Origin: a virus
Direction: 5' to 3' (one strand)
Virus record (IMG/VR): IMGVR_UViG_3300037961_005043
Span: 1-38,508 of that record
Length of the DNA: 38,508 nucleotides
In this document: positions 88-31,559 of the stretch, piece by piece
How positions within the stretch are numbered: position 1 is the first letter of the stretch
Layout of the letters: each line of letters starts with the position of its first letter
Translations under genes and position numbers: made by a program
The notes under the pieces: model-generated
Told to the model about the DNA's origin: nothing
The model's input: the letters and a program-made list of their open reading frames with translations, nothing else
Database searches by the model: none

Positions 88-371
88 TATCTTCTTTTCT
101 TACCATTTCTTTTTTTTGCAAATGTTTTTACATTTGTAGGTTTACCACCTACACCTTGTTTTTTAGCTCTTTTTCTACTAACAGCACTTCTTATTTGTGA
201 CTTAGTCATACGAGCAGCTTTAGCAGCAGGTACACACTTTGGATATTTTCTTTTTTTATCCGCTTTTAGTTTGGACCTTCCACATTTTTTATAGCCTCCA
301 CCTTTTTTTGGAGCACCAATATCTACCCAATTTTCACTAAACCATTTGGTTAAGCCACCTTTGTAAGCCAT
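87..371 (-). CDS. DUF5872-like small basic protein (94 aa)
   Basis: The N-terminal half carries the pattern GLTKWFSENWVDIGAPKK, then GGGYKKCGRSK and a KYPKC segment. I recognise this as the DUF5872 style of small protein shared by marine phages and some large eukaryotic viruses; its function is unknown. The two conserved cysteines (in KKCGRS and KYPKCVP) could bind a metal. The C-terminal third is almost entirely Lys, Arg, Ala and Gly, which suggests nucleic-acid contact (inference). Start and stop both overlap neighbours as TAATG, so it is translated as part of the late polycistron. The family call is from memory and was not tested. Confidence 0.75.
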   Translation of the reverse strand: MAYKGGLTKWFSENWVDIGAPKKGGGYKKCGRSKLKADKKRKYPKCVPAAKAARMTKSQIRSAVSRKRAKKQGVGGKPTNVKTFAKKRNGKKRR

Positions 372-550
372 TATCTATACCTACCACCACGTTTTTTGTA
401 TTCTCTTACTAACCAAGCATTAGCATACGCAGAAGGATATACATCAAACTTACGTTTAGCAGCTGATTTAACTCTAGAATACAGTGCTTTATTTGTAGGA
501 ACGGGTTTTTTTCCTGAGCTTCTTTTTGCTTTTCTTTTTTTTCTTGCCAT
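371..550 (-). CDS. Small basic marine-phage protein (59 aa)
   Basis: This gene starts at the ATG at 550 and ends in TAA overlapping the next ATG at 371. The protein begins MARKKRKAKR and contains the block FDVYPSAYANAWLVREYKK, ending GGRYR. The VYPSAYANAW segment is, from memory, a recurring hallmark of tiny basic proteins in marine phage and giant-virus genomes. No function is established. It lies between capsid-associated genes and the DUF5872-like protein, and the cluster has a strongly positive charge in common. No clear Shine-Dalgarno sits at ideal distance, so translation may be coupled to the gene upstream. Confidence 0.7.
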   Translation of the reverse strand: MARKKRKAKRSSGKKPVPTNKALYSRVKSAAKRKFDVYPSAYANAWLVREYKKRGGRYR

Positions 551-599
551 TAAAATTATACTTTCGTCTCTTGCCGTTTAATGAAACAGATTTAATCAT
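489..599 (-). CDS. Possible overlapping tiny basic ORF (36 aa)
   Basis: An ATG at 599 overlaps the TGA of the 28-codon gene upstream (ATGA). It opens a 36-codon frame, MIKSVSLNGKRRKYNFNG followed by a Lys-rich tail, ending at 489. It would fill the otherwise empty bases 551-595 but overlaps the 59-aa gene in another frame for about 60 bases. Its only support is the ATGA coupling and a Lys/Arg composition like its neighbours. It may be a chance frame in purine-rich sequence. Confidence 0.3.
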   Translation of the reverse strand: MIKSVSLNGKRRKYNFNGKKKKKSKKKLRKKTRSYK

Positions 600-682
600 C
601 TCTTTTTCTTTTTAACCACACGTTTTCTCGCTGGTCTTTTAGGCATTTTCATTTTTTTCTTTTTTTTCATACTACCGTACAT
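596..682 (-). CDS. Tiny Lys/Arg/Met-rich protein (28 aa)
   Basis: An excellent Shine-Dalgarno (GAGGAAATAAT before the ATG at 682) supports translation of a 28-residue peptide that starts MYGSMKKKKKMKMPKRPARK and ends in a run of lysines. More than half the residues are Lys or Arg. It belongs to the basic-protein cluster at the downstream end of the capsid operon. Peptides this small and basic cannot be assigned by family; DNA condensation in the head or a role in assembly is inference only. Confidence 0.6.
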   Translation of the reverse strand: MYGSMKKKKKMKMPKRPARKRVVKKKKR

Positions 683-683
683 A

Positions 684-932
684 TTATTTCCTCACTAGTT
701 TTTGCCACTTATCGTGGTTTCTTTGTTCGTTTTTCTTTTTTGTTTTTGCTAAATGGTCAGACATAGGTACTGTATTAAAGTCTATTAAGTCTTTCCTTAT
801 AGCACTTGCCATAGGAGTATCTCTAGCAATCATATTAGTAGACCATTTTGGAGGGTGTGCTCTTTTACCACAACAAGGGCAAAGAAACATACCTTCTGGA
901 TTTGGTGTACTACAATGTTGACACTTAGCCAT
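684..932 (-). CDS. Zinc-ribbon protein (82 aa)
   Basis: Two cysteine knuckles at the N-terminus (C4-x2-C7 and the CPCC pair at 18-21) form a plausible zinc ribbon. A Lys/Asn-rich tail with no other recognisable motif follows. The ATG shares bases with the TAA of the upstream 63-aa gene. It lies downstream of the capsid and decoration genes, so co-expression with structural proteins is likely. Zinc ribbons of this size often bind nucleic acid or protein partners, but nothing here specifies which. Hypothetical apart from the metal-site prediction. Confidence 0.65.
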   Translation of the reverse strand: MAKCQHCSTPNPEGMFLCPCCGKRAHPPKWSTNMIARDTPMASAIRKDLIDFNTVPMSDHLAKTKKKNEQRNHDKWQKLVRK

Positions 933-1123
933 TAATCTTTAGTAATTATAATTACAGCAACTCTAGTTCTATCTAACATTACTGCTTTTATATCTACAAG
1001 TTTAGCATCATCAATAGTTTCAATATAGTCATTTATCTCTTTTGCTAAAGAGCCAGCTACTGAATCATCTTTTACACTTACATCATTAATAATAACTTTA
1101 GTGCTTGTATTAAAATTTGCCAT
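932..1123 (-). CDS. Hypothetical late protein (63 aa)
   Basis: This is a small acidic to neutral protein with alternating strand-like segments (KVIINDVSV, VDIKAVMLDRTRVAVIIITK). It starts at 1123 behind a good ribosome site (TAGGAGAATAAA before the ATG) and ends overlapping the zinc-ribbon gene. It follows the decoration-like gene after a short gap that holds a hairpin. The size and beta-rich look would fit a small head-completion or decoration component, but no family is recognised. Confidence 0.6.
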   Translation of the reverse strand: MANFNTSTKVIINDVSVKDDSVAGSLAKEINDYIETIDDAKLVDIKAVMLDRTRVAVIIITKD

Positions 1124-1151
1124 TTTATTCTCCTATTATTTAAAATTCTTT

Positions 1152-1189
1152 ATGGCTTTCGGGGTGCAGTGAGCACCCCCAGTAGCCAT
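1152..1189 (-). other. Nested hairpin downstream of decoration gene (or 17-codon ORF)
   Basis: An outer stem ATGGCT/AGCCAT (1152-1157 with 1184-1189) encloses a perfect 7-bp inner stem GGGGTGC/GCACCCC (1161-1167 with 1173-1179) with loop AGTGA. It lies 10 bases after the stop of the decoration-like gene and before the next ribosome site. No T-run follows on either strand, so it is a poor intrinsic terminator. An RNA-processing or stability element is more likely. The same bases read on the minus strand as a 17-codon frame from 1189 to 1136 (MATGGAHCTPKAIKNFK) without a Shine-Dalgarno, so a coding origin of the symmetry cannot be excluded. Confidence 0.45.
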
Positions 1190-1199
1190 TTACTATTGT

Positions 1200-1667
1200 T
1201 TAGCTGTCGCTAAAAGCAGGTGTTGTTACTGATACAACTTGTCCGTTTAAGTACCATTTAGTACCGTCACAAACCATTGTAAATTCAGTTCCTGCTCCTG
1301 GTGTATCCACTTTCAGAATACGGTTTGAGTCTCCGTCTGATTCAACAAGTTCAACATTGTCGCCACTTGCATCTGAATCTAAGAAAACTACCCCACCTTT
1401 AATGAAGTTTGATGTTGAGCCAGTATCAACTGAAAAGTCGTGACCGTCTGCATCATCACCTACGTACCAGAACTTGTAGTTTAAACCACGTTCTAATGCA
1501 CTTGTAGGTAAAGAGTATACTCTATCTGCTGATACATCTTCAATAATCATCAATTTGCCAGAATCGGCTTTTGATAATGAAGCATCTGCATCAGGTAATA
1601 CTCTAAACTCCTGTGGAAAAGTACCAAACTTTCCACTATTAACTTCTAGTCTATTTGTCTTAGCCAT
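1200..1667 (-). CDS. Putative head decoration protein (155 aa)
   Basis: This small protein lies immediately downstream of the major capsid gene with its ATG overlapping the capsid stop (TAATG), and a strong GGAGGGTATATC site precedes it. It is rich in Asp, Ser, Gly and Val with beta-strand segments (LMIIEDVSADRVYSLPT, GGVVFLDSDASGDNVELVESD), ending in a TKWYLNGQVVSV stretch. Position, size and composition fit a capsid decoration or stabilisation protein. No family is recognised by sequence, so the call rests mainly on synteny. A short tail spike or head-fibre base is an alternative. Confidence 0.5.
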   Translation of the reverse strand: MAKTNRLEVNSGKFGTFPQEFRVLPDADASLSKADSGKLMIIEDVSADRVYSLPTSALERGLNYKFWYVGDDADGHDFSVDTGSTSNFIKGGVVFLDSDASGDNVELVESDGDSNRILKVDTPGAGTEFTMVCDGTKWYLNGQVVSVTTPAFSDS

Positions 1668-3058
1668 TATGATATACCCTCCAAGTTAATTAAGTAGTGA
1701 GATTCTGGTAAACATACTTCAAGACCTGCTTCTGTAAGAATCATATCCTTACGTAGGTCTTCGTCAGCACCTTGTACGTTGTCCATAACAACAGTATCAC
1801 GGTTAACTCCATTACCTACTAATGGTCTGTAGTATAATTTACTCATATCTGCCATTAACATTAAGCTCTTTGAGTGTCCTCTAAACAACGGCTCTTTTAC
1901 CATATATACAGACCCGTGGATAGTATTAACTTCCATAAGTTGATGACCGAAAGCACCATTGGCTTCGTTCATATTTAATCTGTACTGTGTACTTTCAGTT
2001 GATTTATCAAGGAAAGCACCGTCACCCATTTTGTTAAAAAATGTGATAACTGGTAAAGAACAAAGTGCTAGTCTTTCATCAGAGCCACCTCTTGCTGGGT
2101 CAAATAATACTTCAAAGTCTCCTAATAAAGCATCATAAGTTAGCTCGGACTGTTGGTATGTTTTAGCATAAGCTTGTTGTGCATTATAAGATAGAGAACT
2201 TGCTCCGTCTACAAATGTACTGTTTTTCAAGATATGTCCAACTAGACCTTCGGTGTACTGAATACCAGCATTATCTCTAGCTTTATGATTAAATAGCATA
2301 GCTCTTTCAATATCAATTTTGTGCTCTCTCATTTTTTGAGCTAACACTCTTTCAAATTCATTTGCTACACCTCTCATATTAATAGCTAGAGCTGTGTTTG
2401 TAATCTCAGCTGCTGTTTTGAAAATCTGGGTGTACCCATAATTATCATCAAAGCTGTCTGAAAAAACGTCTGGTGACCCAGAGCCTTCAGCATATGCTGA
2501 GCCGATGATTTGACATACATCGCCGTCTGCGATGTCATCTTCATCTGAGCCTGAAGCTGCTGTTGAGATACTAATTACTTTAGCAGTAAATGATGTATCT
2601 GCAGCATTAACTACAGGGTCATCTTCAACTCTTACAATAATATTAGCGTAACCGTTAGCATCATAGTCTGTTTGTATAGCAATAACCATACCTTTTACTA
2701 AGAAGTTAACCGCTGCACCGTCTCTTGTATCTACAGTAAGACTGTGAGTTGAATTAACTGTTGCATTTGAAACAGCTGTTCCGTCAATTAGGAACTCTCT
2801 ACTAGTGAAATCAATTTTTGTTCTATCTTCAAGATAACGGAACAAACTATCATCAGTAGGAAGTTTAGCTGTTTGAGACAAGTAAACAAAAAACGGACTT
2901 TCTTCTGGTGCTAATTCTGCAATTCTATCACCGAAGTTATAAATTCGTCTTTGGTCTGGTCTTGACCCGTAATCTGCAGCAGTTACTTGGTTGTTGAAAC
3001 TACCCAATGACTCACTTGCCACTGGTATAGCGTTCATAGTTCCTTTTGTAATTGCCAT
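1667..3058 (-). CDS. Major capsid protein, SU10/DUF5309-like
   Basis: A protein of 463 residues lies between scaffold and decoration genes, behind the best ribosome site of the arm (AGGAGGGATAATAAA before ATG 3058). The N-terminus has the FGDRIAELAPEESPFF block. The middle has a GYTQIFKTAAEITNTALA segment followed by a conserved charged helix (REHKIDIERAMLFNHKA). This is the layout I associate with the SU10/DUF5309 branch of HK97-fold capsid proteins. The length is somewhat above typical, consistent with an insertion at about residues 90-180 that is strand-rich and Asp/Thr/Ala-rich. The protein would form the icosahedral shell around the scaffold and portal. The family branch is from memory; the capsid role itself is well supported by context. 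Confidence 0.85.
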   Translation of the reverse strand: MAITKGTMNAIPVASESLGSFNNQVTAADYGSRPDQRRIYNFGDRIAELAPEESPFFVYLSQTAKLPTDDSLFRYLEDRTKIDFTSREFLIDGTAVSNATVNSTHSLTVDTRDGAAVNFLVKGMVIAIQTDYDANGYANIIVRVEDDPVVNAADTSFTAKVISISTAASGSDEDDIADGDVCQIIGSAYAEGSGSPDVFSDSFDDNYGYTQIFKTAAEITNTALAINMRGVANEFERVLAQKMREHKIDIERAMLFNHKARDNAGIQYTEGLVGHILKNSTFVDGASSLSYNAQQAYAKTYQQSELTYDALLGDFEVLFDPARGGSDERLALCSLPVITFFNKMGDGAFLDKSTESTQYRLNMNEANGAFGHQLMEVNTIHGSVYMVKEPLFRGHSKSLMLMADMSKLYYRPLVGNGVNRDTVVMDNVQGADEDLRKDMILTEAGLEVCLPESHYLINLEGIS

Positions 3059-3079
3059 TTTATTATCCCTCCTAAAGGA

Positions 3080-3790
3080 TTATTTTTTCAAGCGGCGTGT
3101 ATTACCTACAGCAAGTATACGTTTCCACATATCCTGGTCTGCATCTGGTTTAGGTGGCTCACCACCTTGTAATAAACCTGCTGACTTTGGATTTTGTTGA
3201 GTCTTTTTTACACTCTCAACATTAGCAGATACTCTACTTGGAGTATTACCTTTCCATACTTGAAAAAGTGTTTCTAGAGGAATATTATCTTTAGGTTTAG
3301 TTACAAAATCTACAAACTCGGCAGCTTCAGAGTTGTTCAATTTAAAATCATTTTGAACTTGAAAAGTTAATTTATCAACTTCTCTTTGTTGCTCTAATCT
3401 ACCCATATATGCTTGCATTTTTGAACTAACAGCATTATCAATCTCTCTCTGTCTTACTTTATAAGAATCAGAATTAGGATTTGTATATGCGTCCCAAGGA
3501 TTAAACTCCTCTTGTTTCATTGTTATTTGTTCTTTATCTTGTCCTTTACCCCCTGTTAAGTGGTTTCTAACAACGTCAACCAATTCAGGATTGTCCTGAA
3601 ATAGCTTTGCTACTGGTCTTAATTTGCCTAACTCAGCCTCAGCTTTGTCATACATAGACTGGAATTTACGCACTTCATCTGCGTCAGAACTCGAATCTGG
3701 TGTGACACTGGGCTCACTTAAACTATTATTTTCAGAAGTTTCAGAACTTTCTAAAGTTTCTTCCATTACGTTTTCTTGCACGTCTGCCAT
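3080..3790 (-). CDS. Capsid scaffolding protein
   Basis: This protein has 236 residues. An acidic Ser/Glu-rich N-terminus of about 40 residues is followed by a long predicted helix or coiled coil (KFQSMYDKAEAELGKLR) and a Gln/Glu/Lys-rich middle. A short strongly basic C-terminal helix ends in TRRLKK. That pattern (acidic, helical, basic tail) and the position between portal and major capsid are classic for internal scaffolding proteins, whose basic end contacts the capsid floor. The start at 3790 has a good AGGAGTTAAAA site. No protease domain is visible, so scaffold exit rather than cleavage is the simplest expectation (inference). Confidence 0.75.
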   Translation of the reverse strand: MADVQENVMEETLESSETSENNSLSEPSVTPDSSSDADEVRKFQSMYDKAEAELGKLRPVAKLFQDNPELVDVVRNHLTGGKGQDKEQITMKQEEFNPWDAYTNPNSDSYKVRQREIDNAVSSKMQAYMGRLEQQREVDKLTFQVQNDFKLNNSEAAEFVDFVTKPKDNIPLETLFQVWKGNTPSRVSANVESVKKTQQNPKSAGLLQGGEPPKPDADQDMWKRILAVGNTRRLKK

Positions 3791-3811
3791 TTTTAACTCC
3801 TATCGATGTCC

Positions 3812-5803
3812 CTAATCCTCGTCTATCAATGGTGATGTAAACGATTCTATTGTGGGCTGCACCTGTTGTTGTTGTTTTACCTTTTCAGCGTCAATCTTTA
3901 ACTGAGATTCAATACCTGATTTACTTGTGGTAAGTTTGCTTTTAAACTTCTCAACCTCAACACGTTTTCTATCTGATACAGATTCTCTTTGAGCAGTTTG
4001 TAAATCGCCGCTTAAAGTCTTCACTTGCTCTTGTAACTGTTGTATGATACCTTGTAATTGTTGTACCTCTCCAGTTCTAGATAACACTCCTTCTTTATCA
4101 TATATTTCTGTTTTCTTGAGTGCTTCTACTTTGTCAATCAATCCTAATTGATATGCTTCCATATACATTTGATACTCAGCATATTTATTATTAGGCATTG
4201 TAGAGCCAGCTACGATTCTTACATCAAATTGTCCAGATGTAATATCGTTTTTAATTTTTATTAATTCATTTGATTTATCATCATAAAGTCTATTGTTTAC
4301 AGTAAACTCTGTAATATCATTGTTAGGTTGTACTATTCTAAAACTTTTTTCAAATGTGTAATGTCCTCTAGACATTTGATATAATACTTTACCTAACTGT
4401 TGTAAAGACATTTCTATATCTCTTAATTTACTTGCACCTCTACCTTCACCCATTTGTGCTAATAACATAGTACCTCTAACACTATTAGGTGCTCCTTGTT
4501 TAAAACCTTGTAATAGTTCTGGTACACCAAAATTTAAATCAATATATCTTTCTACTTGATTTATCAATGCATAAAACTCTCCAGACAAAGGTTGTGGTTG
4601 TGCTAAATGTGGCTCACCATAAGTTGGGTCATATTCTATAACTGCATTAGGATTAGCCCAATCTTTTTCTATCTGTGATATATCTTCTACACTACCTTGT
4701 GGTATCATAAGTTTTAAACCAGCAGCTGTTTGTGCGTGTGCTAAAGCAAGACTAAATAATTTATTTAATAGTCTTTGCATATCTTTTACTTTATTTACAT
4801 CTGATTTAGGGTAAGGTGTATTAGTCCAAATATTTGGTATTGGTACAATAGGGTATGTATCAGTATCTAATATTGTTTCATATAATAATACTTGACCTAA
4901 TGATGCTGTAAGTTTAATTCTTGTTTGTGGTATTTCAACATATGTATATATGTTAGATTCAATTTTTTCTGCATTGTTTTCTAAAAATACTGCAAATGTT
5001 TCTGCGTCCATAATTTGTTCTGATTCTTCTACAGTATCTGCTACCCTAAAGAAAGGAACTTTAACTTTACTAAATCTTTCTAATATTCTATATCTTCTTG
5101 TTATAGACATATCATAATCTTTAGAATCTACTTCTGCTGGTGTAAAAACTTTATTTGTATTTTTATTAGCAGAATTAGGAAAGTCATCATACTGGTCTTG
5201 AACACTATATGTTTCTATATCTTTTAAAAAAGGCTCAACGTCTGGATATAAATTTAATACTTGTTCTTCTGTAAGTATTGTTGAAAGAATAATACTAGCA
5301 GCATCTTGAAAATATCTATCTCTAGAGGCTGGGTCTACATATACTCTAAAAGGATTTAGATGTGTAAACATAACTTCGCCTCGTCCATAGTCAGCTTCTG
5401 GCTCTATATACGCATAAAAATATCCTAACCCTGTAGTTGCGTAATCGTGCACAGCTTGTTTAAAATGATGCTGCCCGTCTGATATATCGAATATATATTC
5501 AAGAAGTGTTTTCCATACATTTGCTAATTTAGTATCTGAATCTTCTCTTGCTGTAATCCCGTATCGCACAGGTCTAGATGTCATTAATGATTTTAATTTA
5601 TCTATCGCTGCATATATTCTATCTATGGTAAAATCTGCTTGTCCTATTGATTGTAGTGCTTCTGATTCGTCTTGAGTGTAATGATTACCTAATGTAAAAT
5701 CTATTGCTTCTCTTGCGTTTATGTCCCAATCTTTTCTTGCGTCGGCATATTTTCTAAAAATAGTTCTATTTTCATTTGCCTTTTTATCTTCTCGTATTGC
5801 CAT
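3812..5803 (-). CDS. Portal protein, P22-type
   Basis: A 663-residue protein between lysozyme/TerL and scaffold. Early segments (residues 60-160) have the typical portal look: an IDRIYAAIDKLKSLMTSRP helix, then DYATTGLGYFYAYIEPE and LNPFRVYVDPASRDRYF. These resemble the conserved core of P22-like portals. A Gln-rich coiled coil near residues 560-600 (VQQLQGIIQQLQEQVKTL) suits the helical crown or barrel of podovirus portals. The dodecamer would form the DNA entry vertex, docking terminase and later the tail. The ATG at 5803 has a GAGGAATA site and overlaps the lysozyme stop as TAATG. Confidence 0.85.
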   Translation of the reverse strand: MAIREDKKANENRTIFRKYADARKDWDINAREAIDFTLGNHYTQDESEALQSIGQADFTIDRIYAAIDKLKSLMTSRPVRYGITAREDSDTKLANVWKTLLEYIFDISDGQHHFKQAVHDYATTGLGYFYAYIEPEADYGRGEVMFTHLNPFRVYVDPASRDRYFQDAASIILSTILTEEQVLNLYPDVEPFLKDIETYSVQDQYDDFPNSANKNTNKVFTPAEVDSKDYDMSITRRYRILERFSKVKVPFFRVADTVEESEQIMDAETFAVFLENNAEKIESNIYTYVEIPQTRIKLTASLGQVLLYETILDTDTYPIVPIPNIWTNTPYPKSDVNKVKDMQRLLNKLFSLALAHAQTAAGLKLMIPQGSVEDISQIEKDWANPNAVIEYDPTYGEPHLAQPQPLSGEFYALINQVERYIDLNFGVPELLQGFKQGAPNSVRGTMLLAQMGEGRGASKLRDIEMSLQQLGKVLYQMSRGHYTFEKSFRIVQPNNDITEFTVNNRLYDDKSNELIKIKNDITSGQFDVRIVAGSTMPNNKYAEYQMYMEAYQLGLIDKVEALKKTEIYDKEGVLSRTGEVQQLQGIIQQLQEQVKTLSGDLQTAQRESVSDRKRVEVEKFKSKLTTSKSGIESQLKIDAEKVKQQQQVQPTIESFTSPLIDED

Positions 5804-10710: not shown

Positions 10711-10740
10711 TTGACACTTTCGAAAGCCTATACCTATATT
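10711..10740 (+). promoter_or_regulatory. Strong early promoter with palindromic operator
   Basis: TTGACA (10711-10716) and TATATT (10735-10740) are spaced 18 bases apart upstream of the acidic-protein gene. The spacer contains the perfect 10-base palindrome CTTTCGAAAG (10717-10726). An inverted pair ATAGGC (10695-10700) and GCCTAT (10726-10731) flanks the -35. A related ACTTTCGAAGCC occurs at about 10635. This looks like a regulated sigma-70 promoter for the GC-rich early operon. Confidence 0.7.
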
Positions 10741-10819: not shown

Positions 10820-11332
10820 ATGAATACAAATAACGACGTTTACAACGTGTACTTTAAAGATGCTTTCGGTAAGACTATTACCGACGGTATAGCAATAATG
10901 AACGACCCTAAGCTCGACGAGTTTAGAGGTAAAGCGGTAACTAATACCGACGATATTAACTTAGCCGACGTATCGGCTTTCCTAGACATAACGGGGCTAC
11001 AATATGCCGAGTGTATATTCGGGGCAATTTCTGAGCTCTTGGACTTCCTCAGATTTGAGGACGACGAGCTTTATGCCTTCGTCAATAACGTCTATGAAAT
11101 CGAGTCTAATATCGAGGCTATTAGTTGTCAAGCCGAGTTAAATAGTGAATACCCCGAGGAATTTGTCGATGTCGGCGATGCTTACACCGACGAGGTAAGT
11201 TCCTTGAGTGCTCTATGTGCACAAATTGACCCCGACAAATGGGCTCAAGCCGTAGAGAGTGCCGAAAGTTATGAGCCTCAGAAGCTTATTACCGAGGACA
11301 ATAGTAACGAAAACAACGAGGGGTGCTCTTAG
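10820..11332 (+). CDS. Highly acidic early protein (170 aa), possible DNA mimic
   Basis: This is the first gene behind the strongest early promoter, with a GTGAGAATAAA site before the ATG. By count it has about 37 Asp/Glu against 8 Lys/Arg, a net charge near -29, spread along the whole protein. Helical stretches include ISELLDFLRFEDDELYAFV. No family is recognised. Small, uniformly acidic, first-expressed phage proteins include DNA mimics that block restriction enzymes, nucleases or RNA polymerase (Ocr, Arn and others). That analogy is inference from charge and position only. It is co-transcribed with the MoxR and vWA-like genes, so an adaptor for that ATPase system is the main alternative. 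Codon use is GAC/GAG/GTC-rich, unlike the flanking arms. Confidence 0.65.
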   Translation: MNTNNDVYNVYFKDAFGKTITDGIAIMNDPKLDEFRGKAVTNTDDINLADVSAFLDITGLQYAECIFGAISELLDFLRFEDDELYAFVNNVYEIESNIEAISCQAELNSEYPEEFVDVGDAYTDEVSSLSALCAQIDPDKWAQAVESAESYEPQKLITEDNSNENNEGCS

Positions 11333-11335
11333 AGC

Positions 11336-11364
11336 CCCCTCACAAATCCCTCTTTGTCGAGGGG
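11336..11364 (+). other. Intercistronic hairpin
   Basis: CCCCTC-ACAAA (11336-11346) pairs with TTTGT-C-GAGGGG (11353-11364), an 11-bp stem with one bulged C and loop TCCCTC. It lies between the acidic-protein stop and the ribosome site of the ATPase gene. No T-run follows, so it is more likely an mRNA-processing or stability element than a terminator. Confidence 0.5.
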
Positions 11365-11378
11365 AAAGTGAGAATAAA

Positions 11379-12824
11379 ATGCCGTTTAAAGTAACGAAAA
11401 AAACAACGGAAGCTAGTGTCGATACTACTAGCAAAAACAAAGACCTAGAGTCATACGGTTACTCGAGAGAGAATCTCGAGGCTATGCCTCTAAAAACCGA
11501 GCTTAGACCTATAGCTCGAGAGATGATTAACGATGCCCTAGACGAGGGTCTTATCGATAAACAAGAGGCTTCTTATTATCGAGAGAACGTCAAGAGAGCA
11601 AAAAAGTCTCAAGTTATGGACGACTATGAGAACTTACTCGAGATGCTCGTCGATAAAATCAAGGCTAAAAAGCAAGAGGTTATGGACGACCCCGACCTAG
11701 ACGACAACCCTAGTAGTGACGACACTAGCGAGAGCTCAGACTCTAGTAGTGACGATACTACCGAGGACAACGAGTCTAGTAGTGACGAGACTAGTCCGCC
11801 AAGTATGGACGACATCAAGAGGCTTATCGACGAAGCGGTCGCTAAGGGTGCTCAACCTAGTGCCGACGGTACTAGTGATGCCGAATCAGACGACGGGCTT
11901 ATCGAACATTGGCAAATGCCCGCGTTAATGAAGCTTCTCGAGGTAAACAACCAAGCTCTTATCGTCGGTGGGGCGGGTAGTGGTAAGACTACCGTCGCTA
12001 AACAATGTGCTCAGAAGCTAGGCTTTGACGTCGATAAAGAGTTCTTTTCGATTTCAATGTCGGCGGGTGTATCAGAAGCACACTTGACGGGACGTATGAC
12101 CCTAAACGGGGACTTTGTCGATACTAAGTTCCTCAACATCGTCGAGGACGGCGGGCTTATATTGCTCGACGAGTTCGACAATGCCGACCCCGACCCTATG
12201 GTCGCCTTAAATAGTATGCTCTCGGGGGACAATATGTCAGTCCCTCTACGTCGAGGACTAGAGCAAGCAATACGTAACCCTAAGGTCTACATCGTCGCTA
12301 CGGCGAACACCTGGGGCAACGGCTCGGGGGGCTCGGCGGGTTATGTCCGAAAGCAACTCGACTCGGCAACCCTAGACCGTTTTGTCGTCAGTAAAATGTA
12401 CTTTGGTACGGACCGACGTATTACGAATTTTGTCGGCGGTCGTTCAGTCGATAGGTGTAAAGTGCTCAAGAGAAAACTCGAGGACGGTACGGTCGGTTAT
12501 CCTCAACCGTATGCAACGTTCGACCCTAGTGCCGTCGAGCAAGAGGTCGACAAGTACTACGAGGCTCTTGACTATTTGCTCGAGCTTATGCGTAGTGACC
12601 GACGTAGTATTCGATACATACTAGGTAACCGTGCTTACAAGCAAGGCTCGAAGCTTATCAGACAAGCGAATTTCTCTTGCTGGTCGGTGCTCGAGTTGTT
12701 CCTCAGTAACTGGACCGATGCCGAGCTACGTAAGGTCAACATTACTCGACGTCTTGAGGTCGGTCTCGATTTCTATGTCTACGATTTCAACGCGTTCATC
12801 GAGGAAGGGGGACTCAATGCCTAA
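11379..12824 (+). CDS. MoxR/CobS-type AAA+ ATPase
   Basis: The start is placed at 11379 because the leader GAAAGTGAGAATAAA repeats the leader of the gene upstream, giving 481 residues. A helical N-terminal domain (1-105) is followed by an Asp/Ser-rich acidic linker at about 103-145. The AAA+ core comes next: Walker A GGAGSGKT (197-204), Walker B ILLDEFD (261-267), sensor 1 VATANTWG (307-313) and an arginine-finger region LDSATLDRF (327-335). The spacing and the ANTWG sequence match MoxR/CobS-type ATPases, which remodel partners together with vWA proteins. The next gene, overlapping by 8 bases, looks like such a partner. A metal-chelatase role is possible by CobS homology but no chelatase pathway is present. 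GC-rich codon use sets it apart from the rest of the genome. Confidence 0.85.
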   Translation: MPFKVTKKTTEASVDTTSKNKDLESYGYSRENLEAMPLKTELRPIAREMINDALDEGLIDKQEASYYRENVKRAKKSQVMDDYENLLEMLVDKIKAKKQEVMDDPDLDDNPSSDDTSESSDSSSDDTTEDNESSSDETSPPSMDDIKRLIDEAVAKGAQPSADGTSDAESDDGLIEHWQMPALMKLLEVNNQALIVGGAGSGKTTVAKQCAQKLGFDVDKEFFSISMSAGVSEAHLTGRMTLNGDFVDTKFLNIVEDGGLILLDEFDNADPDPMVALNSMLSGDNMSVPLRRGLEQAIRNPKVYIVATANTWGNGSGGSAGYVRKQLDSATLDRFVVSKMYFGTDRRITNFVGGRSVDRCKVLKRKLEDGTVGYPQPYATFDPSAVEQEVDKYYEALDYLLELMRSDRRSIRYILGNRAYKQGSKLIRQANFSCWSVLELFLSNWTDAELRKVNITRRLEVGLDFYVYDFNAFIEEGGLNA

Positions 12825-13836
12825 GGGTAAACGATTCACTTACGACGATAACAAAGTCGAGCTTCGTCAACGTGCTACGTCTAAACGTGGCGACGTGTTG
12901 AGCACTATCGTTAAAAAGTGCAAGCTCGACTTAGAGGGTATGAAGCTCACGGTATTTGATTTCGAGCAATTCGAGGACCTTCTCGAGTATGCTCAGAATT
13001 GTCAGACCTTAGAGGGCGACGACCCTATGAGGGGCTTCGAGGGCGACTACCGTAACGGGTGGACATACTCAGACAATATGAACGTTAAGTCCCGAGAACA
13101 CTTGCTCGAGGTTATCGATAGAGGTTTTACAACCGAGAGAGTGCTCGAGACTTACAACGCGATTAACGACCGACTATATGCCGACCCCGAGAACGTCGAG
13201 AGACTAGGCTCTATGGGTCAAGACACTCGACGTAAGAGACGTGCCGACATAGCGGGGTGCGAGTTCAACGTCGACAAAGCTATGTCGGGTCTATGGGCAA
13301 CCGAATCAGTGAGACGTCTGAACGCGTCCCGTACGGTCCGAGTGTTCATCGACATTGGTAGAAATTGTGACGTAAAACCCGAGGCTATACTCGAGACCGC
13401 TTGCTATGGTATTGCCGTAGCTAAGGTGCTCGAGACCAAAGGCTATGCCGTCGAGATAGATTTCGGCGAGACTTTGTATGCTCAGAAGGAATATAATTCC
13501 CGTATGGAACGAGCTTTGCCCGAGGAATTTATCGGCGACAAAGGGTCGGTCTTTGCTCTACGATACGGGGCTAAGGGTGGCGACGAAAAGGTCGACGAGG
13601 CTAAGCTCTTGACCTTCTCATCGGTGAGCACGTTTAGGGACGTTATGTTCTGCATCTTTGCCTTCGGCTACGGTATGGGTAAATACTCGGGGCTTGGTCA
13701 GTCATTGTATACGACTATACCCCCTTACTCTAACGAGGAATTCTACAAAGAATACCTCGACGTAGATGTCTATATCGGCGGACAAGATACACTCGACACC
13801 GTCATTACAAATGTCCAAGCGGTCATCGACGACTAA
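12817..13836 (+). CDS. Degenerate vWA-like partner of the MoxR ATPase
   Basis: The ATG at 12817 has a GGAAGGGGGACTC site and overlaps the ATPase stop by 8 bases, giving 339 residues. A charged N-terminal part includes a basic patch RRKRR near 138-142. A Rossmann-like segment beginning TVRVFIDIGRNCDV (173-186) follows, with alternating strands and helices to the end. The position of IDIGRN resembles strand 1 and the MIDAS loop of vWA domains, but the DxSxS pattern is not intact, so metal-dependent adhesion is doubtful. MoxR ATPases typically work with an adjacent vWA protein (for example RavA-ViaA, CobS-CobT), which is the main reason for this call. Function in the phage is unknown; particle maturation or host-complex remodelling are options. 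Confidence 0.55.
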   Translation: MPKGKRFTYDDNKVELRQRATSKRGDVLSTIVKKCKLDLEGMKLTVFDFEQFEDLLEYAQNCQTLEGDDPMRGFEGDYRNGWTYSDNMNVKSREHLLEVIDRGFTTERVLETYNAINDRLYADPENVERLGSMGQDTRRKRRADIAGCEFNVDKAMSGLWATESVRRLNASRTVRVFIDIGRNCDVKPEAILETACYGIAVAKVLETKGYAVEIDFGETLYAQKEYNSRMERALPEEFIGDKGSVFALRYGAKGGDEKVDEAKLLTFSSVSTFRDVMFCIFAFGYGMGKYSGLGQSLYTTIPPYSNEEFYKEYLDVDVYIGGQDTLDTVITNVQAVIDD

Positions 13837-13865
13837 AGTCGTCACGCGTAGGACTATCTAAGAGA

Positions 13866-13899
13866 AACCCTCTAGGACTAATATCCTAGAGGGTTTTTT
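13866..13899 (+). terminator. Strong intrinsic terminator of the early operon
   Basis: A perfect 12-bp stem (AACCCTCTAGGA at 13866-13877 with TCCTAGAGGGTT at 13884-13895) with loop CTAATA runs into a T-tract. It lies 30 bases after the vWA-like gene and should end the MoxR operon transcript. Confidence 0.9.
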
Positions 13900-21740: not shown

Positions 21741-23088
21741 AAGATTTAATCAAGAAACTACTAAAATGTTTAGCGGTATTTCTGAAAGAGAAGTTATTGG
21801 TTGTATACTACAAGATGATTCGATTATACCTAAGATATTAAAGTTCATACCTACGTCTCAAGTATTTTATCATAACGACCACGAGATTATTTGGAAAAGT
21901 ATTTATCACTTATATAAGACGAATAAAAAAATAGATTTACCTACAGTTTGTAATCATCTCGCAGCTAAAGGTTACAAGATGACTTTTTATCTCACTGGAA
22001 TACATATTGTGAGCACCGCAAATGTATCTAGTCACGCAAAAACAATTTATGATTTATACATAAGACGTAAGTTGTTTGATTCTATATTAAAATTTGAAAA
22101 AAGATTACGTAATGAATCTACTTATAAAGATATATCTACAGATATAAGTTATTTATCTAAGATTTCAGAAAAATTTACTGGAGTTGTATCAGTAGATGAT
22201 AAGAATATTGCGTCTCTAACTGATGATGTTGAGCAACAAATATATAAGAAAACAAACTTAGTACAGACTGGATTAGCTAAGATAGATAAAGCTATTGTTG
22301 GTATGACCAAAGGAGAAATATCTATTATAGCAGGTAGACCAGGTAATGGTAAGAGCACCTTGGCTTTGAACATTGTAAAAAATATGGTACTTGACGGTAA
22401 AAAAGTTATGTTAATATCTCGTGAAATGCCTAGTGTAGAGATTGTAAAGAAGCTTATTGCTATGCACACTAACGTAAAGAATAAAGAAATGCGTGGTAAT
22501 GCTCATCTACATAAGGAGGAGATACAAAAAGGTTTAGATTTTATACGAAAACATTACAAATCGCTTTATTTATTTGATAATTTAAGAACTCTAGATGATG
22601 CTCTTAATGAAGCAAAAAAGATACAACCCGATATAATTATCGATGACCACATAGGCTTTATAGAGTTTCCTCATTATGACAAACAAGATGTAAGACATCG
22701 TATTGCGGAGATAACACGTAGATATAAATGGCTTGCTAAAGATATTGATTGTGCGGTGCTACTCGTATCACAATTAAATAGAAACATCGAGCATAGAGTA
22801 GACAAGATTCCACGACTCAGCGACCTTGCTGAGTCTGGAAATCTAGAACAAGATGCCGAGATAGTTGTCTTTTGTTACTACCCTTATGTATATGAATATG
22901 ATAATTCTGAGCACGGTGAATATGGTACACAGATTATTGTTGCAAAAAATAGATATGGAACTACTTGTAAATTTGATATGGGTTACGACGGAGACAGTGC
23001 TATGATATTAGATTCTCCAGCAGAAGCTAAAGCTCACAGGGAAGACAGGGTGCTCACGAGCACCGAGCTCGCAGAAGAATTATTCTAG
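21667..23088 (+). CDS. Replicative DNA helicase, DnaB-type
   Basis: Up to 473 residues. The DnaB-like N-terminal domain starts at ISEREVIGCILQDDS (about 38-52), and the RecA-type core has Walker A AGRPGNGKST (222-231), Walker B IIIDDHIGF near 320-330 and the DnaB motif SQLNRNIEHR followed by RLSDLAESGNLEQDAE. It would unwind DNA at the phage fork as a hexamer. There is no fused primase and no primase gene in the window, so host primase is implied. The start is uncertain: 21667 overlaps the previous gene by 74 bases, while the ATG at 21766 would begin directly at the DnaB domain. The TAG stop is shared with the convergent late gene. Confidence 0.88.
   Translation: MKEKDTKIKEIKKKTDSNNYPQHNERFNQETTKMFSGISEREVIGCILQDDSIIPKILKFIPTSQVFYHNDHEIIWKSIYHLYKTNKKIDLPTVCNHLAAKGYKMTFYLTGIHIVSTANVSSHAKTIYDLYIRRKLFDSILKFEKRLRNESTYKDISTDISYLSKISEKFTGVVSVDDKNIASLTDDVEQQIYKKTNLVQTGLAKIDKAIVGMTKGEISIIAGRPGNGKSTLALNIVKNMVLDGKKVMLISREMPSVEIVKKLIAMHTNVKNKEMRGNAHLHKEEIQKGLDFIRKHYKSLYLFDNLRTLDDALNEAKKIQPDIIIDDHIGFIEFPHYDKQDVRHRIAEITRRYKWLAKDIDCAVLLVSQLNRNIEHRVDKIPRLSDLAESGNLEQDAEIVVFCYYPYVYEYDNSEHGEYGTQIIVAKNRYGTTCKFDMGYDGDSAMILDSPAEAKAHREDRVLTSTELAEELF
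23049..23064. repeat. Inverted pair of the GTGCTC motif at the convergence point
   Basis: GGTGCTC (23049-23055), AC, then GAGCACC (23058-23064) form a perfect dyad 21 bases before the shared stop codons of the converging transcription units. As RNA it folds as a 6-bp stem with a CACG loop on either strand. No T-run follows. It could mark or terminate transcription in both directions, or simply be two copies of the abundant motif. Confidence 0.45.
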
Positions 23089-26000
23089 AGGTCTCTCCAA
23101 TATTGCATTTCTTTTCTAAACTGTTGTTCATCTTGTCTAGATAGTTGTCTAGCTAATCCCATAACTTGACCTCTACGTTGTCTATAAAAAGAATTTAGTT
23201 GTTCATATCTCATCAAGAACTCTTTATTATCACGAGATAACTTACTATACCAGTCATCATAAGGACTGAACTCTCTATTACCTCTTTCTTTACTTAGTTT
23301 TAATGGGTCTAATTGGTCAACGTATTCTGTAACGTCATCAAAAGCTTGACGATATGCTCTTATTGGAGACATAGCTCTATTGTTTGCAAGTTGTAATTGA
23401 TGTGCTCGAGATACTACTGCTGCACGAAAAGCATTAGCAAATAATTGTGGAGGTGCATCACTATAAAAAGACTTCTTTAAATATTGATAATGAATATTCT
23501 TTTCATATCCAGCACCTTTAGCTGGTATCTTAAAACCTTGTTTTACACCGTGTATAGACTGATAGTTTCTTTGATTTTGTGTAATCTTTTCATACTCACT
23601 TTGTAATGATTGTGTTCTAGGAGTAACGATATTATAAATACTACTTGTTAGTGCTGTAATTTTAGATGCTTCTTCTATAAAAGCATATCTTTCTGCTTCA
23701 GGGTCATTAGATATATTGTCCTCATTAACCATATCTGCAACCTCTTTGTAAACTTGTTTACCAACTAAAAAAGGTAACCTAGCTAAAATATATCCTTGTC
23801 TTGCTACTGGAAATGTATCTACAAAATTATTTCTACCTTGAGTATCTGAACGTAAAGGTTGTATAAAGTCATTTATAATACCTATCGACCCCATAAACTC
23901 ACCGTAAGCTAAGTAGTCCCAAACTTTTTCAGGTGTTGACTTCCAATAATCTCTTTCTTGATTATAAGCCCAATGATAATACTCAGCAATAGCTGCACCG
24001 CCTAGAGCACTTGTAGCTATGTATCTTAACATAGGTGCTATGTCTCCTTCTCTTGCTGGTCTAACAACGTTATTGTAAACATTGTCTGTAACAATGGTAG
24101 CAATACGAGTAAATAGTGTAAAAGGTTTTACCATATCATTACTAAATAATCTTGGTAACATAGCAACATCTGTAATACCTTGTGTGATAGCTTGACCTCT
24201 AACCATAATTCTACTACGCATTAAGTCTGTAAACTCTCCACTATCTACGGCTTTAGCATAGTCATCTCCCATAGATACCGTTTCACGTAAAAATCTTGCT
24301 GCTTTAGTTTTAGCTTGAGCACTTGATTTAGGGTTACGTAATATTTTTAACGCATTTTCTGCACTTAAATCAAAAGCAGCTATAGCAATCAAACGATTTC
24401 TTTGTTCTACTAATGTCATACCAGTTGTTATAGCTCTTTTAAATTTAGAATAAGCACCAGTGCCTTCATAGTTAAATGCTGTATCAAGTAACTTCATACC
24501 ACTTTGACCTACTGCTAATTTATCATAGTCTACTAAATAAGTTTTCCTAAAATCACTACCTTGCATAGTTCTAGCAAAAGCTTTACTCCATTGTACTAAA
24601 CCTACTGTAGATATAGTTTGTACTTGTCCTAGTATAAAGTTTTTAAGAGGAGATATAACACCACTCAATCCAAAAGCTGCACTAGTTCCTACAAGTTCTC
24701 TCGTCACATCTAAACCCACACCTCTAGCTTCTGTTTTTACTATCTTAGCTAAATCATCTTCAAATAATTTAATAAGTTGAGATGCACTTACCTCTCCTTT
24801 TTCTGATACTTGTAATGCTATTTCATTTATTAGTGAGTTAATACCGTCAGTATACTCTTTCTTTTTACTACTTGTAGCACTTCCAAATTTATATATTCCG
24901 TCCCCAAAATGTTTAGTAAGTGTCATTATGTTTGATATTCTACCACCATATCTATCAATACTATTAATATAATTATAATCATAAGCATCAATACGTTTGG
25001 CAATCTTTTTGCCACCAATCAAGTCTCCTACTTTTTTATTATAGTCATCAGCAATACTAGGTATAAATCTATTGTTTTCATCTAAAAAATATACAGGGTC
25101 TAATTGTATACGTCTAGAATATTGAGCACCATAGATACCATTTTTAGTTGTATTGTTTGCAAATCTTTTATATAAAACTAATAATTCTTCTTCAGTTGCT
25201 CTTGGGTTGTCTCTTTTTAAACGTCTGAGCACCGCTGTCATTAATGAATTAGATTTGTTCATAGCATCTAATAATTCAAAATTAACAGTCAAAGGCATAA
25301 AGTTTTTAACTTCTTGTATCATACGTTTTTCAGGTCTACCATTTTTATAATAGGTTTCTTTTACAAATAACTTATTACCATTTTCATCTTTACCTAAGTT
25401 TTGTGCAACCTTAACAATTTTTTTCATAGTTTTTTTGTGAGCTTCTACCATAGGTTGAAACCTTTTCAAATAATTAGCATCATATCCAGCTAATAAATGT
25501 TTAAAATTAGGGTCAATTAAACCAACCATAACTTTATCAAAGTCTTTTAACATATCTTTGGCTAAACCTTGAGGTGCATTTTTTAGTAGTGTATCTTGTG
25601 CTCTACGCATAGTATATATATAACCAGAAAAAATTTGTTGGTCGAGCACCTTGTTTACTAATTTTTCTGATATTTTTTTAAATACTGTAGCACCAGTTTT
25701 TTTATACAAAAACTCATACGTTCTATACATAGGCATAAGTATACCGTTAGTAGCTGCACTTAATTCAACTCTATTTAAATCTCCTAAATGGTCATCAATA
25801 ACTTTAATACCAGTCTTTACATCTGCGTCTGCTAAACCAGTAAGAACTGCTTGATATGTTTTAGCTTGTTCTGCTGATAATCCTTTAGTCGAACGTGTAT
25901 TAAATAATAGTTCTTTTAAATCTCTATGTACACCTTGACCGTTTTTATTTCTAAATCCAGAATCTACATCTGCATTTATAACTTGTTGATGTAATCTTCT

Positions 26001-28088
26001 GAGCTCATCATCAGTTACTCTACCTCTAGTAGAGGCACTTTGTCCTCTAATAAATTCAACATCTCTTGCTCCTAAAATCTTTTTGGGTGTCTTAGTTTTT
26101 CTAGTAACACTACCATAAGCTATTTGATTTCCTACTGCAATAGTGTTTCCGTTCTGTAATGTTACAGAAAATATATCATTACCTTTAAATTTATCACCGT
26201 TGGTAGCACCATAGATACCATTACCAGTACCACTTTTTCTTTGTGGTTTACCTTTACTACCACGTTTTGGAAGTTCTACAACATTACCAGAAGCAGTACC
26301 ACCGCCGCCGAGCACCTTATGTTTTTTAGTAATCATACGTTTGCCCTGCTCCTCTGCTGCACCAGTAACTGTACTACCTGCAATCTTAGAGTGTAAAACT
26401 ACTTCTTCTAATTCTATGCCATTTTTCTTTTTACGTACAAGCTCGAGCACCCCTTTGTGTGTCATAATTCTATCGTGACCTGTTAACTGACCAACTTGTA
26501 TAGCATCAGATTCTTTCATATTCTTTATAATAAAAGTATTTTGATAACCATTATCTGCTTGTCTTTGCACTCGCATAATATCTTTTTCTTTATATCCACG
26601 TGCAAGTAAATCTCTTACTAAAGATTCTGTAGGACTTTCACCAGGTAAAACTTTTAAATTTTGTTTATGTGATGCTTTATCTACAGTAACAGCTACCCAT
26701 TTACCTGACTCCCAAAATCTTTTAGCATCTTTATCTGTTTTAAAAAATGATTTTACCACACCATTTACATCAACATTTTGCATAATTCTGGTTACATCTT
26801 CAGGTGTGCTAGTATATGTATTAACAAACTCATCTAAAGTTCTTTCTACATTTTTACTGTTCTTTCTAACATTACCGTTTTTATCTAATACATCATAGAT
26901 TACTACTGGTTTATCTACTCTACCTTTTGTTGTACCTTTACCAAACTGTTTTATACGTGCAGTAAATCCACTCTTACTAGTTAATTCTAATCCTTCAAAA
27001 AACTTAGGAACATTTTCTATTTCTTTTACTGCTTTTCTAACAGCAGCTTCTGTAATATCATTAACTAATGATTCAGGTAAATCAGGTGCTTCTTGTCTGA
27101 GCACCTTAGCTACATTATTTTTTGTACTTTTAAATTCTGTACCTCTAGATAAATTACCTAGAGCACCTACCATTAAACCATTTATCAATCTTTCTTGTGG
27201 GTTTAAGTCAGCACCATTTAGTCCACTAGATAATGCACCAGCAGAAAACATATATCCAGTTCCTTTGGTTAAGCTTTTAGATATTTTAAATCCAGCTAAA
27301 TTAAAATCATCAACATTTGTTGCTTTTAAAAAACCTCCTTTAGCAAATAGAGCACCACCAACTATATCACCAGGTAATGCAAGTATTTGTTTCTGTATAC
27401 TAAAAGCTTCATCAGATTGTATTTGAGTTGATGCTGTAGATACTTGACCATATAATCCAAAAAGCTTTGCTTCTTTGACCATACGTCCTCTTTTAAGAAA
27501 TGTTAATGCTTGATTAGGGTCTTTAGCTGCTAAGTTAAAAAATTTATCTGCAGCTGCTGATTTTGCTACTCTACTACCAAATAAATTATAAGTCTGTCCA
27601 AAACCAACAGAGCCTATAGCTTCTATTTTTTGTCCAGCTTGATATGCTTTACCTGCATCTTGAATTTTTTTTAGACCTTTTGCTGTTTGAGCACCTTTTA
27701 GTGACAACGCTGCCAAAGTGCTCGAGCCGCCAGTCATAGCACTAAGTATACCGTGAACACCAAACATACCTAAGACATTACCTGCTGCTCTTGCTGCCAT
27801 AAGAGAGCCACTTTCTAACTCCATAAATGGTATATCTGGTTGTATGAATAGAGCACCTGCTCCTAAACCTTCTTGAAATGCTGATGTTATAGTAGGTGGT
27901 ACACGTAGTTGTTCTTTTGCTTCTGGTACACGTACTGGTCTGAGCACCGCAGATATTGTATTATTATAGTCTACTTCTCGTTGATTAGAAAGAGACCCAA
28001 AGTCTGATAGAGTGATGCCTTGATTTTGAGATTGCTCACCGCTAACATTAAAGTCGTCTAACGAAATGTGTCCAGGTGTGTGTGGCAT
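23085..28088 (-). CDS. Very large internal virion/ejection protein (1667 aa)
   Basis: This is the last gene of the late tail/ejection operon and the largest in the window. It is helical overall, with Gly/Ala-rich hydrophobic segments near the N-terminus (GNVLGMFGVHGILSAMTGG), a Gly-rich basic middle near residues 600-650, and a C-terminal third with a putative membrane-active stretch (IATSALGGAAIAEYYHW). No catalytic motif is recognised. Size, position after a transglycosylase-bearing protein and lack of a tape-measure gene suggest a podovirus ejection protein that enters the host envelope with the DNA. It carries many GTGCTC motifs, often as Val-Leu codons (GTG CTC) that are otherwise rare in this AT-rich gene. 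The stop shares CTAG with the helicase gene. Confidence 0.65.
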   Translation of the reverse strand: MPHTPGHISLDDFNVSGEQSQNQGITLSDFGSLSNQREVDYNNTISAVLRPVRVPEAKEQLRVPPTITSAFQEGLGAGALFIQPDIPFMELESGSLMAARAAGNVLGMFGVHGILSAMTGGSSTLAALSLKGAQTAKGLKKIQDAGKAYQAGQKIEAIGSVGFGQTYNLFGSRVAKSAAADKFFNLAAKDPNQALTFLKRGRMVKEAKLFGLYGQVSTASTQIQSDEAFSIQKQILALPGDIVGGALFAKGGFLKATNVDDFNLAGFKISKSLTKGTGYMFSAGALSSGLNGADLNPQERLINGLMVGALGNLSRGTEFKSTKNNVAKVLRQEAPDLPESLVNDITEAAVRKAVKEIENVPKFFEGLELTSKSGFTARIKQFGKGTTKGRVDKPVVIYDVLDKNGNVRKNSKNVERTLDEFVNTYTSTPEDVTRIMQNVDVNGVVKSFFKTDKDAKRFWESGKWVAVTVDKASHKQNLKVLPGESPTESLVRDLLARGYKEKDIMRVQRQADNGYQNTFIIKNMKESDAIQVGQLTGHDRIMTHKGVLELVRKKKNGIELEEVVLHSKIAGSTVTGAAEEQGKRMITKKHKVLGGGGTASGNVVELPKRGSKGKPQRKSGTGNGIYGATNGDKFKGNDIFSVTLQNGNTIAVGNQIAYGSVTRKTKTPKKILGARDVEFIRGQSASTRGRVTDDELRRLHQQVINADVDSGFRNKNGQGVHRDLKELLFNTRSTKGLSAEQAKTYQAVLTGLADADVKTGIKVIDDHLGDLNRVELSAATNGILMPMYRTYEFLYKKTGATVFKKISEKLVNKVLDQQIFSGYIYTMRRAQDTLLKNAPQGLAKDMLKDFDKVMVGLIDPNFKHLLAGYDANYLKRFQPMVEAHKKTMKKIVKVAQNLGKDENGNKLFVKETYYKNGRPEKRMIQEVKNFMPLTVNFELLDAMNKSNSLMTAVLRRLKRDNPRATEEELLVLYKRFANNTTKNGIYGAQYSRRIQLDPVYFLDENNRFIPSIADDYNKKVGDLIGGKKIAKRIDAYDYNYINSIDRYGGRISNIMTLTKHFGDGIYKFGSATSSKKKEYTDGINSLINEIALQVSEKGEVSASQLIKLFEDDLAKIVKTEARGVGLDVTRELVGTSAAFGLSGVISPLKNFILGQVQTISTVGLVQWSKAFARTMQGSDFRKTYLVDYDKLAVGQSGMKLLDTAFNYEGTGAYSKFKRAITTGMTLVEQRNRLIAIAAFDLSAENALKILRNPKSSAQAKTKAARFLRETVSMGDDYAKAVDSGEFTDLMRSRIMVRGQAITQGITDVAMLPRLFSNDMVKPFTLFTRIATIVTDNVYNNVVRPAREGDIAPMLRYIATSALGGAAIAEYYHWAYNQERDYWKSTPEKVWDYLAYGEFMGSIGIINDFIQPLRSDTQGRNNFVDTFPVARQGYILARLPFLVGKQVYKEVADMVNEDNISNDPEAERYAFIEEASKITALTSSIYNIVTPRTQSLQSEYEKITQNQRNYQSIHGVKQGFKIPAKGAGYEKNIHYQYLKKSFYSDAPPQLFANAFRAAVVSRAHQLQLANNRAMSPIRAYRQAFDDVTEYVDQLDPLKLSKERGNREFSPYDDWYSKLSRDNKEFLMRYEQLNSFYRQRRGQVMGLARQLSRQDEQQFRKEMQYWRDL

Positions 28089-29278: not shown

Positions 29279-29280
29279 TT

Positions 29281-30090
29281 TTAACCGTCCTCGTAATCAT
29301 CTTGGTCTTGTTCATTATCGTTGTCTTCATTGTTGGTTGGGTCGTAGTCAAACAAATCTGCTAGGTCTGCAAGTCTTAACATATCACTTCTTTGATTTGC
29401 TTCTAATCCTGCTAAGTATCTTTGAGCACCTGTAATTCTATTAATAATATCTTCACTAATATTATACAATCCTCTACTAAAGTTTGATTGTATGCCTTCA
29501 AATCTCATAGCAGCTTGGTTGCTTATATTACCATAAACGTTTCTACCTAAAGCAAAACCACGGTTTCCTTCCATACCTCTAGCTTGTTCTAAGCTTTGAA
29601 ATAAACTACCTCTTAATCCTTGTTCTGCTTGACTTCTTTGTTCTTCTAACATACCTGTTCTTTCCTGACGCATTAATGAATACATTTCTGATTCTGGGTC
29701 TGCAGCTTCATAGATTTCTGACGGGATTACAGATACAAACTGTGTCAAACCTTCAAGTTCAGAAATATCTACGTCAGGAAAGAAAGATGTTAAAACTTCT
29801 AGTGGGTCTTGTCCAGGTGTGGAGGTTGGTGTTTCATTTCCAGTAGTAGTAGGGTCATCATCAATTATACCCCCATTAGTACCAGTTGCATCGTCATCTC
29901 CTATTTGGTCTGGACCTGTAAAATTATTTGTATTACCATTTATAAAAAAAGAAGGTGCAACACCTCTAGTTTCTTGTACAGGATTACCTGAGCCTAAACC
30001 TGTAGCATTACCAGGTGCTATTTGGTTTGGATTTAGTTGCTTTAGTAAAGCATCTACATCTGGTGTTCTATATGGGTCAAGCATTGACAT
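29281..30090 (-). CDS. Putative internal virion/tail protein (269 aa)
   Basis: The N-terminal half is low in structure, with Gly/Thr/Asn/Pro-rich sequence (residues 20-95). It is followed by a helical segment rich in Gln and Arg (EEQRSQAEQGLRGSLFQSL). The tail is strongly acidic (DNDNEQDQDDYEDG). It starts in a TAATG overlap with the transglycosylase-bearing gene behind GAGGATTTTA. Composition and position suggest a virion core protein. The acidic tail may contact basic partners. No family is recognised. Confidence 0.5.
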   Translation of the reverse strand: MSMLDPYRTPDVDALLKQLNPNQIAPGNATGLGSGNPVQETRGVAPSFFINGNTNNFTGPDQIGDDDATGTNGGIIDDDPTTTGNETPTSTPGQDPLEVLTSFFPDVDISELEGLTQFVSVIPSEIYEAADPESEMYSLMRQERTGMLEEQRSQAEQGLRGSLFQSLEQARGMEGNRGFALGRNVYGNISNQAAMRFEGIQSNFSRGLYNISEDIINRITGAQRYLAGLEANQRSDMLRLADLADLFDYDPTNNEDNDNEQDQDDYEDG

Positions 30091-31514: not shown

Positions 31515-31559
31515 AATCCCTTAATAAATATATTAAATATTATATCCTCATTTCTACTA

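Follow-up and report, generated by a model that had tools for sequence, protein, structure and literature searches.

A phage AAA+ ATPase of the MoxR/CobS type and its DUF7192 neighbour, a predicted vWA protein devoid of MIDAS: a probable remodelling machine built like NorQ-NorD

Pairs made of a MoxR-class AAA+ ATPase and a vWA partner are documented in both cellular and viral genomes. In NorQ-NorD, known from cryo-EM (9qh6, 9qhd; PMC13036017), the target of the partner NorD is nitric oxide reductase; NorD carries a separate N-terminal domain, and its MIDAS is intact. The C-terminal end of NorD contacts NorQ (PMC13036017), and NorQ is still bound when the MIDAS is mutated, but the target is no longer activated (PMC9976466). 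Therefore, coupling to the motor can outlast the loss of the MIDAS. Among viruses, cobST clusters have been published in tailed viruses (PMC8651126), MoxR-vWA/CobST pairs in haloarchaeal viruses (PMC7911831) and, in jumbo phages, a MoxR protein with a peptidase-fused vWA (PMC7824862). Because such pairs are already published, the label of 'undescribed phage system', given by a first-pass annotation to the operon analysed here, is too strong.

This operon is carried by an IMG/VR virus record of 50,937 bases, of which the window, i.e. the stretch of 38,508 nucleotides used here for all operon coordinates, is the first part. The proposed organisation was confirmed: positions 10820-13836 carry three genes, all on the + strand, encoding an acidic protein, an AAA+ ATPase and a third protein (Table 1). 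The start codons of the acidic and ATPase genes are both carried by an identical stretch, GTGAGAATAAAATG, and the ATG of the third gene sits within the final codons of the ATPase gene; starts at 10820, 11379 and 12817 are likely, and the overlap suggests that the last two genes are translationally coupled. The strong terminator announced downstream is indeed present, none of 200 shuffled sequences being equally stable. It was overlooked by a consensus terminator scanner, probably because its U-run pairs inside the stem. The 'strongest early promoter' said to drive the operon corresponds to a site matching 11 of 12 consensus bases, but the same scan found another 11/12 site at 18253, and promoter-like sites in the region are no more frequent than in shuffled DNA (30 versus 27 +/- 6). 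The strength of the promoter and its early timing are therefore plausible. No RNA family or tRNA was found in the window, and the region used as a nucleotide query had no match in the phage collection.

Table 1. Features of the three-gene operon (window coordinates)
Feature	Position	Strand	Basis or remark
Candidate sigma-70-type promoter, TTGACA-18-TATATT	10711..10740	+	Consensus scan, 11/12 bases matched
Acidic protein, 170 aa, net charge -29	10820..11332	+	ORF; homologues in L003-L006 and L029
AAA+ ATPase, MoxR/CobS type (AAA_5; phrog_249), 481 aa	11379..12824	+	Pfam, PHROG, motifs
DUF7192/phrog_1909 protein, 339 aa	12817..13836	+	Likely vWA-like domain about 171-339; conserved segment 131-170
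ATPase stop/third-gene start overlap, 8 nt (ATGCCTAA)	12817..12824	+	Sequence
Intrinsic terminator hairpin	13862..13899	+	RNA fold -24.2 kcal/mol, z -5.46

The ATPase matches AAA_5 (Pfam, 4.6e-16) and phrog_249 (1.8e-29), a phage family labelled 'porphyrin biosynthesis'. It comprises an N-terminal region, an acidic Ser/Asp-rich linker and an AAA+ core that displays Walker A (GGAGSGKT), Walker B (LLLDEFD), sensor 1 (N310), an LDRF motif and a sensor-2-like R418, while a stretch of the form GR..L.G.F..T.F occupies the place expected for the helix-2 beta-hairpin insert. Among close relatives, Walker A, Walker B, sensor 1 and LDRF do not vary, and distant phages largely retain them. In a profile search against solved structures, CobS (4.4e-5) and NorQ (6.9e-5) were matched, which, together with the two family assignments, bears out the earlier MoxR/CobS-type call. 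The ATPase also shows the traits of MoxR-like (clade 7) AAA+ proteins, namely an AAA_5-type core with Walker A and B, sensor 1 and an arginine-finger region, and a neighbouring gene for a vWA partner, here a DUF7192 gene whose product has a predicted vWA fold.

Indeed, the third protein belongs to DUF7192 (PF23822; 9.9e-9, 35.4 bits versus a Pfam gathering cut-off of 27), an unnamed Pfam family without assigned function, and also matches phrog_1909. Two AlphaFold models, a first one built from 7 sequences (pLDDT 57.7, pTM 0.66) and a deeper one built from 15 (pLDDT 67.8, pTM 0.72), both display a C-terminal alpha/beta domain starting at about residue 171. After realignment, the first model is closest to Rea1-MIDAS (Z 6.8), NorD (6.7) and MDN1 (6.3) and the deeper one to NorD (6.5), Rea1 (6.0) and MDN1 (5.6); behind these three (Z 5.5-6.8) come other vWA-type proteins such as Ku, integrins and complement. 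Foldseek also places NorD at the top of the PDB for both models, weakly (E 0.04 and 0.0086). In BFVD, a library of viral structures, the first 12 ranks are taken by DUF7192 or unnamed entries (down to 3.6e-10), and phage CobT and vWA proteins come next (4.6e-6 to 9e-4). At the sequence level, the profile search suggested by the first-pass annotation did not link the third protein to any vWA family (Pfam, PDB profile search, hhalign), and neither Pfam nor NCBIfam gave a CobT match; one Thermus phage vWA protein, compared by hhalign with two DUF7192 alignments, gave nothing, a weak test given the single sequence on one side. Integrin I-domain matches to the third-protein profile in the PDB sequence search were rejected, being limited to the N-terminus and insignificant (E 0.09 and worse). 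Globally, the domain covering residues 171-339 or so is likely a vWA fold, as judged from models of moderate confidence with all Z below 8. This reading is the best one because modest scores agree and because the vWA domains of AAA+ partners are preferred. Structure prediction thus yielded no unrelated fold, and the vWA-like nature proposed for the third gene holds at this level.

The MIDAS motif had been described as not intact, and it is lost well beyond this phage. The DxSxS signature is absent from the third protein and, at the aligned position, from 27 of 27 distinct sequences, three of which (L044, L047 and L048) are not DUF7192-positive by profile; absence was judged on DxSxS, the T and D positions not being placeable. 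The position reads FIDIGRN in the window protein; close relatives have FIDLAR or FIDYAQS there, and in other phages the residues are unrelated. MIDAS loss across the 27 sequences is therefore a family trait and not decay within a single phage. Invariant residues cluster in segment 131-170 (16/40 versus 34/299 elsewhere, p = 2e-5; p = 0.0012 when the variable N-terminus is left out), which directly precedes the first vWA strand and is modelled partly at pLDDT < 50. By position alone, the models suggest that this segment may be the finger equivalent. Furthermore, both models align through the last residue (638) of Paracoccus NorD. By analogy with the NorQD mutants, the natural reading would be that the phage protein retained motor coupling and lost metal-dependent target binding.

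The phage pair thus resembles NorQ-NorD in its MoxR-class AAA+ ATPase and in a vWA partner whose best structural match is NorD, but this partner is MIDAS-less and about half the size of NorD. With CobS-CobT and the viral cobST clusters (PMC8651126), it shares a phrog_249 ATPase with a CobS-like AAA+ core, a two-gene organisation in tailed viruses and the phage CobT models that trail DUF7192 in BFVD. However, the sequence of the third protein is not that of a CobT, and the protein has neither the MIDAS nor the large N-terminal part. Like the jumbo-phage pair (PMC7824862), it would be a phage-encoded AAA+/vWA chaperone-cochaperone, whereas the vWA is there fused to a metallopeptidase.

The two genes are tightly associated. 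Among the IMG/VR loci fetched by DUF7192 queries, the ATPase gene lies just upstream in 16/16. Conversely, the IMG/VR loci fetched for the ATPase include 16 contigs with a profile-positive third gene, three distant ones with a right-sized downstream ORF devoid of DUF7192 match, an incomplete one and two of other ATPase branches. No isolate phage protein was matched when searched directly with the third protein, and the link to isolates came via the families and the ATPase neighbour: a DUF7192 gene is found just downstream of the ATPase gene in all eight non-cyanophage isolates sampled (Lactobacillus 3-521, Acinetobacter AM24, Listeria P100plus and LP-114, crAss-like cr10_1, Staphylococcus 515A1, and Mycobacterium LeBron and Loadrie), a 66-aa ORF being intercalated in Lactobacillus 3-521. 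Among Staphylococcus phage records, 236 match the ATPase and 236 the DUF7192 protein. In two close pairs, dN/dS is 0.2-0.4 for both genes, which are therefore under purifying selection. The coupling of the ATPase and third genes is thus borne out by synteny. As for the possibility, raised at the outset, that the ATPase occurs elsewhere without these neighbours, it does occur without the acidic gene but keeps the third gene. In cyanophage S-RIM8, the 'CobS' has a CobT-like 'peptidase' nearby in place of DUF7192. This 'peptidase' of Synechococcus phage S-RIM8 (L016 357-2474) shows a weak CobT-like match (phrog_5298, 1.7e-7), and cyanophage cobT is usually annotated as peptidase (PMC8651126). A relative of the ATPase was also observed on a Flavobacteriales MAG contig (CAIQQJ010000155.1; L052 1745-3145 and 3635-4723), two genes downstream of a gene of known antiviral type, whose product resembles viperin-kinase proteins (pVip-kinase, 2.2e-136). 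This contig breaks off inside the ATPase gene, which hides any partner.

The first gene does encode a highly acidic protein, as announced, but it is not a fixed member of the system. Its product has no match at a useful E-value in Pfam or PHROG and none among isolate phage proteins. Five further IMG/VR contigs (L003, L004, L005, L006 and L029) have the three genes in the identical order, including a homologue of the acidic gene, and outside these close relatives and the window, unrelated ORFs occupy the position upstream of the ATPase. The acidic gene is outside the conserved ATPase-DUF7192 unit. In a second lineage, the slot is taken by a different small gene (L007 5501-5986, L034 2261-2731, L035 2908-3381), with a motif like RSYIERTMVREDEPRNP, which overlaps the ATPase start by 1-4 nt.

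These data make an AAA+/vWA protein-remodelling machine on the NorQ-NorD pattern the probable product of the operon. The ATPase would form the ring motor, and the third protein, as a small stand-alone vWA, would be its dedicated partner, engaging the ring by segment 131-170 and its C-terminus, possibly by finger-in-pore docking. ATP hydrolysis would then move or twist the vWA and so remodel a bound target complex. As the MIDAS site is lost, the grip on the target would fall to a metal-independent surface or to a different element, such as the variable N-terminus, the N-terminal region of the ATPase or a lineage-specific operon mate, e.g. the acidic protein. The machine would act during early infection on a replication, recombination or host complex. 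In the window, the operon belongs to a + strand cluster that includes genes for an exonuclease, an Erf-like annealing protein and a DnaB-like helicase, and the opposite strand carries the head and packaging genes; in isolate phages, genes for helicase, primase, clamp loader and nucleotide metabolism are among those nearby. An early, replication-phase target is therefore weakly favoured over virion assembly. Passages found in the main texts of the Kayvirus 515A1 paper and of a Listeria phage multi-omics paper give no expression timing for these genes.

A role in virion assembly deserves the most attention among the alternatives. The pair would then be a chaperone comparable to the jumbo-phage MoxR-vWA pair, for which this function was proposed (PMC7824862), or to the archaeal p618/p892 pair of Acidianus two-tailed virus, a precedent cited in PMC7824862 and PMC7911831, and the homologue of the ATPase in Kayvirus 515A1 is annotated 'structural protein'. 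The replication/recombination setting just described, away from the head genes, and the isolate neighbours argue against this role, as does the metallopeptidase fusion of the jumbo-phage vWA, so that assembly is possible but unlikely. The first-pass annotation had rather imagined a counter-defence or host-takeover device with the acidic protein as adaptor, substrate or mimic. Such a device would fit an acidic gene that leads the operon and is conserved in five relatives, and operon mates that differ between lineages as swappable adaptors would; it is nevertheless rather improbable, given that most family members lack the acidic gene, that conservation of the pair across distant phages points to a core function and that the defence-gene library of known defence proteins returned only generic P-loop matches.

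Two further alternatives concern the nature of the pair itself. If the third protein had another alpha/beta fold, the pair would be a different type of AAA+ machine. The failure to connect it by sequence to any vWA family and the middling structural scores are compatible with this, but two models of unequal depth put vWA first, and specifically partners of AAA+ rings, and the BFVD list runs from DUF7192 on to CobT/vWA; another fold is thus quite improbable. Still less credible, and indeed very improbable, is a viral cobaltochelatase module, in which phage CobS and CobT would borrow host CobN and provide more vitamin B12 for nucleotide synthesis. This hijack of CobN by viral CobST has been proposed (PMC8651126), the ATPase falls in the 'porphyrin biosynthesis' family and CobS is its best structure match. 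However, the CobS equivalog model gives the ATPase 17.4 bits and does not reach its cut-off of 558.55, the third protein has no CobT match and no MIDAS, and neither CobN nor ribonucleotide reductase was found in the record, which may be incomplete and whose CobN could be host-supplied.

The AAA+/MIDAS-less-vWA reading, preferred here, concerns many phages. Hundreds of sequenced ones, e.g. Kayviruses and Listeria P100-type phages, have an ATPase often labelled 'CobS / porphyrin biosynthesis' beside a 'hypothetical' protein, and the pair recurs, in adjacent positions and misleadingly labelled, in many unrelated phages. This reading provides a testable mechanism for both genes and speaks against vitamin B12 as a label for this branch of ATPases. 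DUF7192 is not mentioned in the literature searched, and the publications found do not state a vWA fold, MIDAS loss or AAA+ partnership for DUF7192/phrog_1909; the apparent novelty lies in recognising a likely MIDAS-less vWA in the 'hypothetical' protein encoded next to phage 'CobS' ATPases in several phage families. The metal site lost here is the one by which related partners grip their targets. The pair also provides a natural experiment on the abilities of a MoxR-vWA machine deprived of its MIDAS. It is conceivable, though unlikely too, that DUF7192 constitutes a phage-wide class of MIDAS-less vWA cochaperones with their own AAA+ motor and metal-free recognition, re-aimed from one phage lineage to another by swapping the small upstream mate, here the acidic protein, possibly against host defence or replication complexes.

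Two observations concern the rest of the record. Beside the replication genes, the - strand of the window (23085-34150) encodes large proteins of 1667, 396, 474 and 741 aa for which PHROG gave no match at E 0.01. At its right end (about 45.3-50.9 kb; L051 7265-12927), the record carries a diverged second copy, with 66-75% nucleotide identity, of the head block found at 89-5737 of the window, including the major head protein, a scaffold-like gene and the portal; this second block stems either from a duplication or from the chimeric joining of two related phages during assembly.
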